Shown here: positions 54,097 to 64,000 of the stretch, one piece after another | Layout of the letters: the number at the start of each line of letters is the position of its first letter | Numbering within the stretch: position 1 is the stretch's first letter | Notes under the pieces: model-generated | What the model saw: only the letters and a program-made list of their open reading frames with translations | Database searches by the model: none | Told to the model about the DNA's origin: nothing | Program-made: the position numbers and the translations under genes | NCBI GenBank assembly: GCA_021845925.1 | Contig: JAJZUW010000002.1 | Location: 145,529 to 209,528, forward strand | DNA length: 64,000 nucleotides | Direction of reading: 5' to 3' | DNA from: Pseudomonadota bacterium | GTDB taxonomy: Bacteria; Pseudomonadota; Gammaproteobacteria; Burkholderiales; Sulfuriferulaceae

Positions 54097-54141
54097 TGGC
54101 GCGCCCGACAGGAGTCGAACCTGTGACCTTTGGCTTCGGAA
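54097..54141 (-). tRNA. Orphan 3' half of tRNA-Arg(CCG); candidate att site
   Basis: Read on the minus strand this is the anticodon loop TTCCGAA (anticodon CCG), the 3' side of the anticodon stem, variable region, T-arm (GGTTCGACTCC) and acceptor end GTCGGGCGCGCCA. The 5' half is missing: the next bases are AT-rich DNA (CGCGAAAATTTTACATC) that do not pair with the stem. The break in the anticodon loop is typical of tyrosine-integrase crossover sites, and the integrase begins 106 bp further on. Not a functional tRNA. Confidence 0.82.
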
Positions 54142-54247: not shown

Positions 54248-55405
54248 ATGGCGACAATTCAGAAGCGCAGTGGCAATTGGCAAGTCAAGATTCGCAGGGG
54301 TGGTTGGCCAGTTCAAACCCGTACATTTGATGTTCGTGAGGATGCAGAAAAGTGGGCACGTGCGCTTGAACGCGAAATGGATGTCGGCTCTTTCATCCAG
54401 CGTGACGACTCCGAGCGGGTGACCTTTGCCCAGGCAGCAAAGCGTTATGAACAGGAAATCTTGCCCGAGAAACGAGGGCGTGTGCAGGATGCCAGTCGTT
54501 TGCGACAACTGGTCAGGGCATTTGGTCCATATAGCCTGATTGCGCTCACAAATATCCGCATCGCGGAATATCGTGATCAGCGATTGAAACAAATCTCACC
54601 ACAAAGTGTGGTGCATGAATTGGGGGTGCTGACACGTGTGCTGAAGGCATGCGTCATGGATTGGGGCATCATGCTGCCACATGGCATTCCCACTGCAATG
54701 GTGCGGAAACCAAAGATCAGGAACGAACGCAGCCGGCGGCTTGATCCGCTTGAAGAGCAATACCTGTTTGAAGCCATCCGCAACCCTGGCACCCAGCACC
54801 CCAATCCCTGGACAATGGCACTGGTCGTGCTCGCACTGGAAACCGCAGGGCGCCGTTCCGAATTGTTGTCCTTGCGGTGGGATGAAATTGATCTGAACCG
54901 TCGTGTGGCAAGGTTGCGTGGAGCCGATGGCGGTGTCACCAAGAACAATGAGCCATGGCGTGACATACCCTTGTCATCCCGGGCGGTCGCCATGCTGAAA
55001 GAGTTGCCCCGCTCTCTGGATGGCAGGGTATTGCCGATGACTCCCAACGCAGCACAGACATCATGGGAACGTGCAGTGCTGCGGGCAAGGCAGAATTATC
55101 TGCATGACATTCTGAAACAGCGATTGCCTGCCATGGGGCTGGATGCCGAATCGGAAATCCGGGCGCTGGTGTTCAAGAAACGTGAGCCGCATGCGCAAAC
55201 AGTAAAGATCTTGACCGAACTGAACTTGCGAGACAAGACACTGGTTGATTTGCATTTCCATGATTTGCGCCATGAAGCCACCAGCCGTTTGGCGGACAAA
55301 TTGCAAATGCACGAACTGATGAAAGTCACCGGGCACAAGACCAGCAAAATGCTGGCACGGTATTATCACCCCCGTGCTGAGGATCTGGCAGCCAAGATCG
55401 GGTAG
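54248..55405 (+). CDS. int: Tyrosine recombinase (phage-type integrase)
   Basis: 385 residues. N-terminal arm-binding region starts MATIQKRSGNWQVKIRRGGW; the catalytic domain carries the Arg in TAGRRSELLSLRWDEID (about 201), the HxxR box in DLHFHDLRHEATSRL (about 340) and the final His and Tyr in TGHKTSKMLARYYHP. The residues R-H-R-H-Y appear complete. It would excise or integrate the island by recombination at the tRNA-Arg site. Codon usage and composition are less GC-rich than the backbone genes. Confidence 0.93.
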   Translation: MATIQKRSGNWQVKIRRGGWPVQTRTFDVREDAEKWARALEREMDVGSFIQRDDSERVTFAQAAKRYEQEILPEKRGRVQDASRLRQLVRAFGPYSLIALTNIRIAEYRDQRLKQISPQSVVHELGVLTRVLKACVMDWGIMLPHGIPTAMVRKPKIRNERSRRLDPLEEQYLFEAIRNPGTQHPNPWTMALVVLALETAGRRSELLSLRWDEIDLNRRVARLRGADGGVTKNNEPWRDIPLSSRAVAMLKELPRSLDGRVLPMTPNAAQTSWERAVLRARQNYLHDILKQRLPAMGLDAESEIRALVFKKREPHAQTVKILTELNLRDKTLVDLHFHDLRHEATSRLADKLQMHELMKVTGHKTSKMLARYYHPRAEDLAAKIG

Positions 55406-55461: not shown

Positions 55462-55722
55462 GTGCCAATTATAAGTCGATTTTTTGGGATCATTATACGC
55501 ATGTTTTTTAATGAGCACGCGCCGCCCCACTTTCATGCGGAATATGGTGAATACCGTGTGGTAGTCGATATCAATACGCTGGAGGCGATTGAAGGTCATT
55601 TCCCGCGCAGGGCACTGGAATTGGTGTTGGATTGGGCGGAGTTGCATCAGAAAGAATTGTTGCAGGATTGGAGTTTGTGCCAACAACATCAGCAACCGAC
55701 TGAAATTGAGCCTTTAGAGTGA
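55462..55722 (+). CDS. DUF4160 small protein
   Basis: 86 residues, starting at GTG 55462 behind AAGGA. It begins MPIISRFFGIIIRMFFNEHA (M for GTG) with PPHFHAEYGEYR, the pattern of the DUF4160 family. DUF4160 genes are usually followed by a DUF2442 gene, as here, and the pair is often noted as a toxin-antitoxin-like or regulatory module on mobile DNA. Function is not established. Confidence 0.85.
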   Translation: MPIISRFFGIIIRMFFNEHAPPHFHAEYGEYRVVVDINTLEAIEGHFPRRALELVLDWAELHQKELLQDWSLCQQHQQPTEIEPLE

Positions 55723-55731
55723 GGTGGTGTC

Positions 55732-55986
55732 ATGGATTGGGATGTTATTGAAGCCAAAGTCGTTGAGCCGGGAAAATTTTTAGTGCGTTTTGCTGATGGC
55801 CTGCAAGGGGTTGTGCAGTTTGCCCCCAGTGCTTACCGTGGTGTGTTCGAAAAACTGCGTGATCCTGTTGAGTTCAACAAACTATATGTGAATGGTTACT
55901 TCGTCACCTGGCCGGGTGAGCTTGATCTGGCGCCTGATGCCATGCATAGCCAGATCAAACACACCGGGGAGTGGGTGATTCAATAA
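55732..55986 (+). CDS. DUF2442 small protein
   Basis: 84 residues (MDWDVIEAKVVEPGKFLVRF, VNGYFVTWPGELDLAPDAM). Matches the DUF2442 pattern and lies 9 bp after the DUF4160 gene. Possibly an antitoxin-like partner. The last seven bases overlap the end of the convergent excisionase-like gene. Confidence 0.85.
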   Translation: MDWDVIEAKVVEPGKFLVRFADGLQGVVQFAPSAYRGVFEKLRDPVEFNKLYVNGYFVTWPGELDLAPDAMHSQIKHTGEWVIQ

Positions 55987-56303
55987 TTTTCCCAACCAAC
56001 CGGTGGTTGTTGGCTGCGTGGACGACCACGAACTCCTTTTTTGGTTGGGGTGATGATTTTCTGACCTGCCGAAGGTTCGCTAATTTCTCCAGCAAAAAAC
56101 CGGCACAGATCAGCCAGCAAAACCCCCTGACGCCCTGTTCTTGTTGTGATGGGCACAGGAAATTTTCCCCGATGAATGGCACGACGAGCCCCAGCCTCAC
56201 TGAGACTCAATGCCTGTAACAGATAACCATCGTTAACGGCCATCCAGTCACGCGCACCATTTTTCAAATGTATTTCATACAAATCATTGCTGTTCATCTT
56301 CAT
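55980..56303 (-). CDS. Small putative DNA-binding protein (excisionase/PrtN-like)
   Basis: 107 residues. A helix-turn-helix-like segment LSLSEAGARRAIHRGKFPVP is followed by a wing-like ITTRTGRQGVLLADLCRFF and a basic tail (TKKGVRGRPRSQQPP), the layout of AlpA/PrtN/excisionase-type winged-helix proteins in phages and islands. It is the only minus-strand gene near the integrase, so a directionality-factor role is plausible. I do not recognise the exact family. Confidence 0.5.
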   Translation of the reverse strand: MKMNSNDLYEIHLKNGARDWMAVNDGYLLQALSLSEAGARRAIHRGKFPVPITTRTGRQGVLLADLCRFFAGEISEPSAGQKIITPTKKGVRGRPRSQQPPVGWENY

Positions 56304-56344
56304 GCTCCAAAAATATGTCCTGCACGGAAAATGGAGCGCGGATT

Positions 56345-56369
56345 TTTTCGAGCCAATAATATAAATTTG
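56345..56369. repeat. 25-bp direct repeat, left copy
   Basis: TTTTCGAGCCAATAATATAA followed by ATTTG. Matches the copy at 57710-57734 in 22 of 25 bases, in the same orientation; both contain a TATATTAT-type promoter-like core on the minus strand. Confidence 0.75.
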
Positions 56370-56614
56370 ACCGGTGCATGGAGCCTGATTTCAGTCCAAA
56401 CGACCGCCGAGAGCCGTCATTGAGCCGGGAGGGATAAATGGAAGGGACCCACGAAGTGGGGAGGTGCCGTTTATGCTCACGGCGATATTGACGGTGTGAG
56501 GCGGGAGGTACGCTCTGGCATGGGGTCGAGATGGTTTTCAATCTCGGCCCCTGCCCCCCCGGCGAGGGGGAAGGTGGTTTTTGTTCCGGCGAATCTATCC
56601 GTATGTTATGTAAT

Positions 56615-56641
56615 AAAAAAACCCCGCCGAAGCGGGGTTTT
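56615..56641 (-). terminator. Rho-independent terminator, minus strand
   Basis: Stem AACCCCGC / GCGGGGTT with a four-base loop, followed on the minus strand by a run of seven T (TTTTTTTATT). On the plus strand only TTTT follows, so it is stronger leftward. It would end transcripts arriving from 57.7 kb. Confidence 0.8.
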
Positions 56642-57210
56642 GGGGACGAGTTGATCCATACGCCGCTTGTGGCGGCGTTGGTTTATACGAGGCAAAGCCA
56701 CGTGAAAGTTCATTTCCGGGGATCCTCCCGTCGATGAACGAATGTGCCAATTCCAATGGTGCCAGCCACTGGAGTCTCAACGCGGCCAGGCGTTGAGACT
56801 TGGTGTTACATACACTGCCGGGGGCGTCACTCCCCTGAACCTTCTTTTGTGTCGATCCCGCCTTTCTTACCCGGTCAGATTCGCCGGTTCGTACTCCCAC
56901 CGCATGAGTCAGCAGTTGTACGTCTCATACTCAGCAAGTCTCCCTCTCTTGCGCCGTTTTCTCGGGTGCCAACCCGGTACAGACCGTCAGAGATTCCCCA
57001 CTTAGCCTGTTGCTACTGCGTGCATTTAGCGGTCGACTCATTTTGCTGGCTTAGGTCAAAGACCCTACCCCGTTAGATTCAACGGGTTTCGGAGGCTAAA
57101 GATTCCCAAAACGCTCTCCTACTACCAGAAAAATATCAACGTCTACTCATACACCGCCGCATCATGCACTCTGCACAGCATCCTCCGGGTTGAATTCCCG
57201 TGGATTACCG

Positions 57211-57536
57211 TTACACGTTTGAGCTGTCATCGACCCCCGATTTCGCGAGGTGCCCTTCATCCACAGCACATGGGTTATTGACCCTGTGCCCGCCTTGCGG
57301 CGCATGAAGCAATGCCATTACTGACATAAGAAGCCATCGTGTGCAGTACACGTCGCGCTGTTGCCATACGCGCCGTGACCCGGACTTTCGCCGGATTTCG
57401 CAAACAGACAGGTCACACAGGCATTTCCTCCTGTGCGCCGTTTCATGGTCGCCCAATATTCAGGATTGGAATGGGTGGAAGCGGGCATTACAGCCCACAG
57501 CCCCCGTTGCAGCCGCGCCAGCCCTATTAGAGGCAC
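57211..57536 (-). pseudogene. Possible frameshifted small gene (uncertain)
   Basis: Two short minus-strand frames, 57536-57318 and 57456-57211, each look protein-like in part (MKRRTGGNACVTCLFAKSGE; LLMSVMALLHAPQGGHRVNN) and would make one longer product if joined by a shift near 57365. This could be the remnant of a small island-borne gene of the P4 ash/Icd type, or chance frames across a structured RNA. I cannot decide from sequence. Confidence 0.25.
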
Positions 57537-57709
57537 GCGGCTACATCGACACTTACCCGGTTGGCGACCGGGCTTGCAGGCTTCTGCCTGCGAAGGTTAA
57601 CAGTGAGGGGCCTGGCCGCCCGTCACTGCGTTACAGTGTATTCAGGGTGGCGGCCCAGCTATCCGTTGCCGGATTGAGCGTACACACCGTGGAAAAGTAC
57701 CCGTCTGAA

Positions 57710-57734
57710 TTTTCGGTCCAATAATATAAATTCG
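57710..57734. repeat. 25-bp direct repeat, right copy
   Basis: TTTTCGGTCCAATAATATAA followed by ATTCG, 1365 bp to the right of its partner at 56345. Could mark the start of the leftward transcript (AT-rich promoter core) or the edge of an inserted segment. Confidence 0.75.
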
Positions 57735-57780
57735 CGGTTCTGCTCAATGACGATGCTTCAATCCAACTGCTCGCCGCAGG

Positions 57781-57818
57781 GCAGGTGGCCAGATTTAAAT
57801 CCCAATCCGGCCACCTGC
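57781..57818. repeat. Perfect 10-bp inverted repeat
   Basis: GCAGGTGGCC / GGCCACCTGC with an 18-base AT-rich centre (AGATTTAAATCCCAATCC). Long palindromes with AT-rich loops in front of a candidate replication gene are origin-like, though a regulatory RNA hairpin is as likely. Confidence 0.75.
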
Positions 57819-57843
57819 CGCACAGCATGGGTCACTTCATCCC

Positions 57844-57925
57844 GTCAAGGGACTGGTTTGCAACCACGCCACAGTTGCGCGCATCGCGCTTGCCTGTGGC
57901 GGCGCCAGGTTGTGGCGCCCTTGAC
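57844..57925. other. Branched hairpin structure upstream of the 239-residue gene
   Basis: An outer stem GTCAAGGG (57844-57851) / CCCTTGAC (57918-57925) encloses GCCACAG / CTGTGGC (57868-57874 / 57894-57900) and GGCGCCA / TGGCGCC (57901-57907 / 57912-57918). The outer and third stems share one base. It could be an origin-like or regulatory structure for the downstream gene. Confidence 0.55.
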
Positions 57926-57994
57926 TGGCTTTCGTGACGTTGCGGTTTTGCCAAATTCACCGGCTTCCCTCTTCTCTTGGAATCTTCATATGTT

Positions 57995-58017
57995 CTGTTT
58001 CGCTGCGCGCGAAACAG
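57995..58017 (+). terminator. 9-bp hairpin before the 239-residue gene
   Basis: CTGTTTCGC / GCGAAACAG around TGCGC, followed by CCTTATTGTTG. It may be a weak terminator for rightward RNA or a control hairpin 29 bp before the ATG of the next gene. Confidence 0.4.
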
Positions 58018-58046
58018 CCTTATTGTTGTGTATCGGAGAAGCCGAA

Positions 58047-58766
58047 ATGAACCAATTCAAACCCGCAGAAACATTCATCCTCCACCACAAAACCGCTGCC
58101 ATGCAACGCCTGGCCGATCTGGTGCGAACCGGCCACCGGTTTCATGTCAGCGGCACGGTCAGCCCGGAAAAAGTTCAGGGATTAGCCAAGAAATTTACCG
58201 GGCTGTACCAGACCAACCAGACCCGTTTGCAGGCATCCCGTCAACGCAAAACCGGCGAAGCCAGTTTCCGGTTGCTGCTGCAAGGTAAACCTGATGCTAC
58301 GGAAATCCGCTGGTGGTTGTTGCGTACCGATGGGGAAATGCCGGAGGCCGCAAAAAAAGAAAACTGGGCAGACGCCACCCAACGTGGTCAGCACATCGAA
58401 TGGGATGGATACGAACTGGTTCGGCATACGCGGGAAGGTGCAAACAACCCGTCGTGGTCGTGGCGATATACCAAGGAACAGGAAGCATCGCTGCGTGATG
58501 GCCTCGTGAACGCCATCCGCACCCACCGAGATGATCACCTCCGTCAACTGATAGATTCCATCCACCGCACGCCTGGGTTTGCGCTGGCGAGGGAACAGGT
58601 CAAGAAAATGCGCAAGCTGATCACCGATGAATGGAAGCGCCGGGGTAGGGATGGGGCACCACCGGAAATGCCGGGCAGGGTAGGTTATGTGCAGCGGCTG
58701 GCGGATGTTGGGCATCGGGTAGGTGCGACGAAGGATAGGAAGCGCGGGGTGAGGCGGGTGAAATAA
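58047..58766 (+). CDS. Island protein of unknown function, 239 residues
   Basis: ATG 58047 follows GGAGAA; the open frame extends back to 57747 across the palindromes but has no start signal there. The protein begins MNQFKPAETFILHHKTAAMQ and has a mixed alpha/beta middle (IRWWLLRTDGEMPEAAKKEN, WDGYELVRHTREG) and a strongly basic C-terminus (TKDRKRGVRRVK). No membrane segment, Walker motif or signal peptide. Basic charge and position next to palindromes suggest a nucleic-acid-binding, possibly replication, protein. I do not recognise the family; a BLAST-type search would decide. Confidence 0.75.
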   Translation: MNQFKPAETFILHHKTAAMQRLADLVRTGHRFHVSGTVSPEKVQGLAKKFTGLYQTNQTRLQASRQRKTGEASFRLLLQGKPDATEIRWWLLRTDGEMPEAAKKENWADATQRGQHIEWDGYELVRHTREGANNPSWSWRYTKEQEASLRDGLVNAIRTHRDDHLRQLIDSIHRTPGFALAREQVKKMRKLITDEWKRRGRDGAPPEMPGRVGYVQRLADVGHRVGATKDRKRGVRRVK

Positions 58767-58824: not shown

Positions 58825-58896
58825 GGCTGGCTGGGCAGGCATGATATGGGCTGGCTGGGCAGGCATGATATGGGCTGGCTGGGCAGGCATGATATG
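58825..58896. repeat. Three 24-bp tandem repeats plus a partial fourth
   Basis: Unit GGCTGGCTGGGCAGGCATGA plus TATG at 58825, 58849 and 58873, all identical; a degenerate partial unit begins at 58897. No spacers, so it is not a CRISPR array. It lies within the left end of the decayed IS. Confidence 0.9.
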
Positions 58897-58918
58897 GGCT
58901 GGTTGAGATGGCGAGGAG

Positions 58919-63940: not shown

Positions 63941-64000
63941 CCACCAAGAATTTCATCAACTTTCACGTTCTCATTTCCCACAGCCCGTCTTGTTTGAATC
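63937..64000 (+). CDS. cas7e: Start of Cas7e (Cse4/CasC), cut by window edge
   Basis: The first 21 codons read [20 protein letters not shown] plus N, matching the standard I-E Cas7 start (E. coli [20 protein letters not shown]). This backbone subunit is present in six copies in Cascade and coats the crRNA. The remaining genes (cas5e, cas6e, cas1, cas2) and any array would lie to the right of the window. Confidence 0.92.
   Translation, partial: [21 protein letters not shown]

Follow-up and report, generated by a model that had tools for sequence, protein, structure and literature searches.

What is encoded at positions 56304-58046 of the window, the whole stretch of 64,000 nucleotides analysed here, is not evident from its open reading frames, and the question is which kind of molecule this DNA specifies and what that molecule may do for the element carrying it. 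A preliminary description had proposed a large non-coding RNA transcribed leftward, and this proposal is supported by strand preference, covariation, a terminator, and the lack of a coding frame; the structured RNA was moreover found to lie within an island bounded by an integrase and a tRNA gene. The frames are indeed short and unconserved across the stretch, and a coding gene was rejected because none of them is conserved. An intrinsic terminator facing left lies exactly where it had been placed (minus strand AAAACCCCGCTTCGGCGGGGTTTTTTTATTAC, 56641-56615), and the presence of the AT-rich core at 57.72 kb was confirmed, this being one of the two copies of a 23-bp direct repeat. The RNA had been given too large an extent: its presence as a structured molecule was confirmed, but the conserved part is narrower than claimed (about 56830-57600), and the segments on either side of it (56304-56614 and 57733-58046) represent promoter, leader, or spacer. 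The features surrounding the RNA are the following.

56345-56367 and 57710-57732: 23-bp direct repeat, TTTTCG..CCAATAATATAAATT, fronting both the RNA and a 107-aa ORF
55980-56303, minus strand: 107-aa ORF downstream of the RNA, preceded by a 91% near copy of the promoter-like sequence at 57710-57732
56615-56641, minus strand: intrinsic terminator of the RNA, from sequence and terminator prediction
58047-58766, plus strand: acpG, 239 aa, divergent to the RNA, from a family that adjoins the RNA in other loci

As inferred from the repeat, the RNA and the 107-aa ORF may share a promoter or operator. Neither a tRNA nor an Rfam match was found in 56304-58046; searches at gathering and relaxed thresholds returned only weak matches, most of which were the terminator hairpin and the others chance. 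GOLLD, ROOL, OLE, and HEARO RNAs were consequently rejected for want of a match to any Rfam model, and the suggested resemblance to GOLLD and ROOL does not go beyond their being large ornate RNAs on mobile DNA. A phage origin was rejected as well, because no relatives were found in phages or viral contigs.

Pieces of the stretch were matched by BLAST in its own genome (L002) and in a plasmid of Burkholderia glumae, and a non-coding element of 600-730 nt with 60-70% identity was found upstream of nearly every relative of acpG (about 35 loci), the element and the acpG relatives spanning alpha-, beta-, and gammaproteobacteria. RNAalifold yielded -242 kcal/mol for the minus strand vs -179 for the opposite one, and -243 vs -184 in a second run. 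In an alignment of 26 copies of the element (A6), 60 of the 79 predicted pairs showed compensatory changes. Two sub-alignments had 90% and 97% of their cells paired, falling to 31-44% when the structures were slid, and reached covariation scores of 0.61-0.62 compared to 0.20 and 0.18 after shuffling. None of 500 shuffles attained any of these measures, so the alignment of homologues that had been recommended as a check of the stems came out in favor of an RNA, with covariation above 500 of 500 shuffles. Strong terminators follow beyond the element on the RNA strand at many loci. In plasmid pMtBL (L022, 3122-3265), the RNA and the protein gene are located on the same strand rather than on opposite ones, so that the RNA is not simply a leader of acpG.

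The affiliation of the RNA became apparent from a covariance model of its 5' domain (R1). It detected the element in each of the 8 genomes with acpG among a sample of 369 genomes of the class, and also gave weaker matches immediately downstream of the reverse transcriptase genes of group II introns; one such match (L102, 5076-5197) sits on the D5-D6 hit of Rfam RF00029 (5078-5151), directly after a reverse transcriptase ORF. The initial reading as a new RNA class was dropped after these matches beside reverse transcriptase genes, which pointed to circularly permuted (CP) group II introns. CP group II ribozymes, formerly known as T-large RNA, have been described by Roth et al. (2021) together with their partner AcpG (PMC8637638), and as judged from the sequence there is hardly any room for doubt that the RNA belongs to them and that the gene at 58047-58766 is acpG. 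The assertion that the RNA fits no known class therefore has to be withdrawn, as it belongs to a described group that is undetected by Rfam 15 at its gathering thresholds. The covariance-model check suggested at the time accordingly gave a divided result, with no family match in Rfam 15 but a match of our own models to a published member: the copy of pTT8 was found by both R1 and the protein HMM. The homologues also include pPNAP05 (L025/L079), whose CP RNA has been shown to be expressed (PMC8637638). Matches to the RNA alone in three genomes (G009, G176, and G307) were weak; one each in G009 (L102) and G176 (L101) adjoins a reverse transcriptase gene, and these two were taken as ordinary group II introns and not as CP RNA. 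The sequence at 3276-5151 of L102, from the related genome G009, represents an ordinary group II intron with a reverse transcriptase, which can serve as a control. The parts assigned to the RNA in the window are listed below.

56615-57715, minus strand: proposed transcription unit of the CP RNA, its start near 57.71 kb inferred from the AT-rich core, its end being the intrinsic terminator
56830-57600, minus strand: conserved structured core, 60-70% identity to homologues, with compensatory changes
57556-57572, minus strand: P2 hairpin, its loop GCCA able to pair with TGGC in the D2 loop (covarying loop-loop scan)
57511-57542, minus strand: D5 hairpin with AGC triad (AGCCG...) and 2-nt UG bulge (R1 alignment, pair counts)
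57473-57505, minus strand: D6 hairpin with bulged branch-point adenosine at 57476 (R1 alignment, pair counts)
57455-57469, minus strand: 15-nt linker CCAATCCTGAATATT between the 3' site UU (57471-57470) and the 5' site GGGCG (57454-57450), the predicted RNA circle
57002-57454, minus strand: D1-like domain, including EBS AATCTT at 57104-57099 (alignments A6/A8, EBS-IBS covariation scan)
56947-56993, minus strand: D2-like domain, with loop TTGGCA pairing with P2

The permuted order is evident from D5-D6 lying at the 5' end, where R1 matches the D5-D6 of ordinary introns, with D1-D4 after them, beginning with the D1-like domain. The splice sites, placed by sequence and by the rule of PMC8637638 (NU, then GGGCG), are reversed around a short linker whose 15 nt correspond to the short end of the published range of 15-86 nt. 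When complementarity to the final bases of the linker was scanned for without bias, one site stood out as the best covarying one (z about 5.7). It is AATCTC-like and corresponds to 57104-57099 in the window, as expected for the EBS, and five of the six positions pair there; the single mismatch is shared with L024 and may weaken the copy in the window. The P2-D2 pseudoknot is represented by CGCCA and TGGCA, with covarying variants elsewhere, and 56830-57600 holds only short frames and no reverse transcriptase. The RNA thus shares with the published CP group II ribozymes the domain order, the D5 and D6 motifs, the GGGCG and NU splice sites, the P2-D2 pseudoknot, the EBS-IBS interaction, the adjacent acpG, and a location on plasmids or chromosomes (PMC8637638), and is set apart from them by its chromosomal tRNA-Arg island with CRISPR-Cas cargo and by the one EBS-IBS mismatch. 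With canonical bacterial group II introns (Rfam RF00029, group-II-D1D4) it has the homology of D5-D6 in common, whereas D5-D6 precede D1, and a reverse transcriptase ORF and an Rfam match are missing. A canonical intron was rejected on these grounds, as neither the order from D1 to D6, nor a reverse transcriptase ORF in D4, nor an Rfam match was met.

Self-processing to a circle and a branched RNA has been reported in vitro for five relatives (PMC8637638). This also bears on the alternative that the conserved structure acts as single- or double-stranded DNA, such as an ornate oriT or hairpin DNA, and not as RNA. Such an interpretation draws on the location of the element where an oriT would be expected, beside a coupling protein (T4CP) gene and a processing gene, but we consider it very improbable in view of the terminators on the RNA strand, the preference of folding and covariation for the minus strand, the group II catalytic motifs, and the splicing of relatives in vitro, one of which is expressed (PMC8637638).

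The protein partner is less revealing. The gene product meets the definition of AcpG by homology and by proximity to a CP RNA, the family HMM matching TTHC007 of pTT8 with an E-value of 1.7e-16. No relative was detected by sequence in Pfam, NCBIfam, PHROG, or PDB, sequence searches gave no match to a relaxase, and an AlphaFold (AF2) model of fair quality built from 8 sequences (mean pLDDT 82.8) had no structural match in PDB or BFVD. Because the structure searches gave no match, no catalytic site of AcpG can be named. Relatives of acpG are present on 26 plasmids of PLSDB and in a few per cent of the genomes of the class, and in the one sample of 369 genomes all eight that carry acpG also carry the RNA. 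The coupling is not absolute, since two acpG plasmids (L029 and L032) have no detectable CP RNA, and CP RNAs without acpG are known (PMC8637638). The hypothetical orf1 of pMtBL, a Pseudoalteromonas plasmid in wide use, is acpG, and the plasmid also has a CP group II RNA.

In the window, the pair resides in an integrative island of 16.6 kb, which extends from 54097 to the window's end at 64000 and on to 70767 in the contig. Its landmarks within the window are as follows.

54097-54141: 45-bp repeat forming the left attachment site, with an exact second copy at 70723-70767 outside the window
54248-55405, plus strand: tyrosine recombinase (integrase), Pfam PF00589 (2e-18), just inside the left repeat

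An intact tRNA-Arg(CCG) gene (70723-70799) has the right repeat at its 3' end. Cas3, Cse1, and Cse2 were identified by Pfam among the cargo, and the ORFs and repeats further right, read by eye, seem to make up the remainder of a type I-E CRISPR-Cas system with its array; units of a 24-bp tandem repeat occur at 58825-58900, just upstream of cas3. A DUF4160/DUF2442 gene pair is found near the CP RNA (55462-55986), and the pTT8 copy is also near a DUF2442 gene (L104, 4026-4199). No T4SS or relaxase gene was seen among the ORFs of the island. Other chromosomal copies are also near integrases or tRNA genes. The genome itself has a second copy of the CP RNA-acpG pair (L057, contig C5), beside an integrase and tRNA-Ser(GCT). 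The proximity of the CRISPR-Cas I-E locus might be taken to indicate a ribonucleoprotein for defense or anti-defense that attacks incoming nucleic acids via reverse splicing, a possibility also raised in PMC8637638; we see only a slight chance for it, as CRISPR is not a common neighbor of the pair and the recurring ones are T4CP, T4SS, and integrases.

The plasmid-borne copies offer a different context. T4SS and T4CP genes are present on acpG plasmids of Escherichia coli, Gluconacetobacter, Paraburkholderia, and Pandoraea, and the VirB11 ATPase gene follows acpG directly or is at most two genes away in the E. coli plasmid (29.8 kb), in Gluconacetobacter, and in L054 and L071. On the E. coli plasmid, acpG and VirB11 are separated by the gene of a T4CP homologue, all encoded on the same strand. 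In Gluconacetobacter, Paraburkholderia, and Pandoraea, the RNA is flanked by acpG on one side and by a divergent T4CP gene on the other; Paraburkholderia and Pandoraea have their VirB genes at another location on the plasmid. All 26 acpG plasmids of PLSDB are typed as non-mobilizable by MOB-suite (ten of them near-clones), compared to 878 of 5000 control plasmids that encode a homologue of VirB11 and 142 of 1368 that encode one of T4CP; kinship was left uncorrected on both sides, and several of the acpG plasmids are themselves without T4SS. Fifteen acpG plasmids lack relaxases of PF03432 and PF08751, and those of the MOBQ, MOBH, and MOBV types are excluded only via the MOB-suite types and the annotation of the records. 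Among 5426 complete genomes of E. coli, at least 15 contain a plasmid of about 30 kb (L081 and relatives) that combines the CP RNA and acpG with a VirB-type secretion system; those found in PLSDB are typed as non-mobilizable. The pair is also found without any T4SS, namely on small cryptic plasmids and on pTT8 of Thermus.

Since most copies are plasmid-borne, pMtBL among them, and origins of the ColE1 type are run by structured RNAs, the pair might instead serve replication, copy control, or stability of plasmids. This appears improbable to us: the plasmids have their own Rep genes, the pair is also found on chromosomal islands, the origin of pMtBL (1918-2759) does not include the RNA and suffices for replication (PMC6848147, PMC10033558), and pTT8 still replicates after removal of most of its copy (PMC8637638). 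A reading as replication origin was set aside on the evidence from pMtBL and pTT8.

The apparent exchange of the pair for the gene of a MOBC-like relaxase is the main new evidence presented here, and the island and plasmid context is likewise the new part of this work. It rests on five sister plasmids (L109-L113) from Pseudomonas aeruginosa, Eleftheria, Vibrio, Proteus, and Klebsiella, which were chosen by similarity of T4CP or VirB11. All five encode a protein of 237-290 aa with a PD...ExE-like motif between a divergent T4CP gene and the T4SS operon, which includes VirB11 in L109, L110, L112, and L113, and a gap of about 1 kb precedes the gene in four of them. The protein is regarded as a putative MOBC-like relaxase because of a MOBC call by MOB-suite in two records, a weak match to PF13814, and the resemblance of the motif. 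An HMM trained on four of the proteins detects the remaining one with an E-value of 2.8e-38 and has no match in the four complete acpG plasmids and six additional loci searched, and the stretches of the sister plasmids examined contain neither an R1 match nor acpG. L109, L110, and L112 are T4SS plasmids typed as non-mobilizable in spite of encoding the MOBC-like protein, indicating that MOB-suite typing may miss some relaxases. The CP RNA-acpG pair and the relaxase gene therefore appear to be alternatives at a matching place, with five plasmids on one side of the comparison and Gluconacetobacter as the closest match in gene order. Like the module of the CloDF13 MobC type, the pair is positioned beside T4CP and T4SS genes; unlike it, AcpG bears no sequence relation to the MOBC relaxase, as examined by HMM and hhalign, and the sister plasmids are without CP RNA. 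While the class of the RNA, its linkage to acpG, the boundaries of the island, and the putative MOBC-like relaxase at the matching place are shown at the level of sequence, binding of the RNA by AcpG, any action on DNA, and any role in transfer are inferred.

The same observations bear on whether the RNA is merely a selfish or passenger ribozyme of plasmids and islands without any role in transfer, its adjacency to T4SS genes being due to chance or to a preference of insertion. No function has been shown for CP RNAs (PMC8637638), their group II relatives are selfish, and small cryptic plasmids devoid of transfer genes harbor the pair as well. Nevertheless, we regard this explanation as rather unlikely: the catalytic features are conserved in the absence of a reverse transcriptase and of any means of moving (PMC8637638), the linkage to acpG persists across classes, and a relaxase holds the matching locus in sister plasmids.

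Position and exclusion evidence suggests, as the simplest reading, that CP RNA and AcpG jointly do the job of a relaxase and an oriT. That they constitute a relaxase-independent DNA-transfer module is the explanation we prefer over the others, although this function is inferred and we give it only about even odds. The RNA probably folds like a group II intron and could splice out the internal 15-nt linker as a circle, as predicted from sequence for the copy in the window, leaving a branched RNA of D5-D6 and D1-D4. Together with AcpG, it would form the DNA-processing module of elements without a relaxase: the ribonucleoprotein would recognize a site on its own element, possibly via the EBS, open or nick one DNA strand, and hand this strand to a coupling protein and T4SS, either their own in the case of plasmids or helper-supplied for the island described here. 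It has been discussed that the branched CP product could in principle reverse-splice into DNA (PMC8637638). That the ribozyme ribonucleoprotein itself substitutes for a relaxase, selecting the transferred strand and cutting it or reverse-splicing into it, and thereby defines a relaxase-independent mobility class of proteobacterial plasmids and islands, remains a tentative proposal that may well turn out to be wrong. A precedent for a mobilizable island that needs an RNA for mobilization is SGI1, whose module consists of MpsA, MpsB, and sgm-sRNA and whose transfer requires its own RNA but no classical relaxase (PMC9299015); it differs in employing a small sRNA and an MpsA of the tyrosine-recombinase type.

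The 2021 description settled on no role for the CP group II ribozyme or for AcpG: it reported the function of the RNA as unknown and contains no transfer hypothesis (PMC8637638). No later paper on this role was found in the literature searched. The apparent swap with a MOBC-like relaxase now offers a concrete and testable role for the CP RNA and AcpG. Such a role would make it understandable how plasmids that have a T4SS but no relaxase found on them could be transferred. If true, the typing of plasmid mobility misses a whole class, for example the E. coli plasmids of about 30 kb, and a large natural ribozyme would be acting in horizontal gene transfer.
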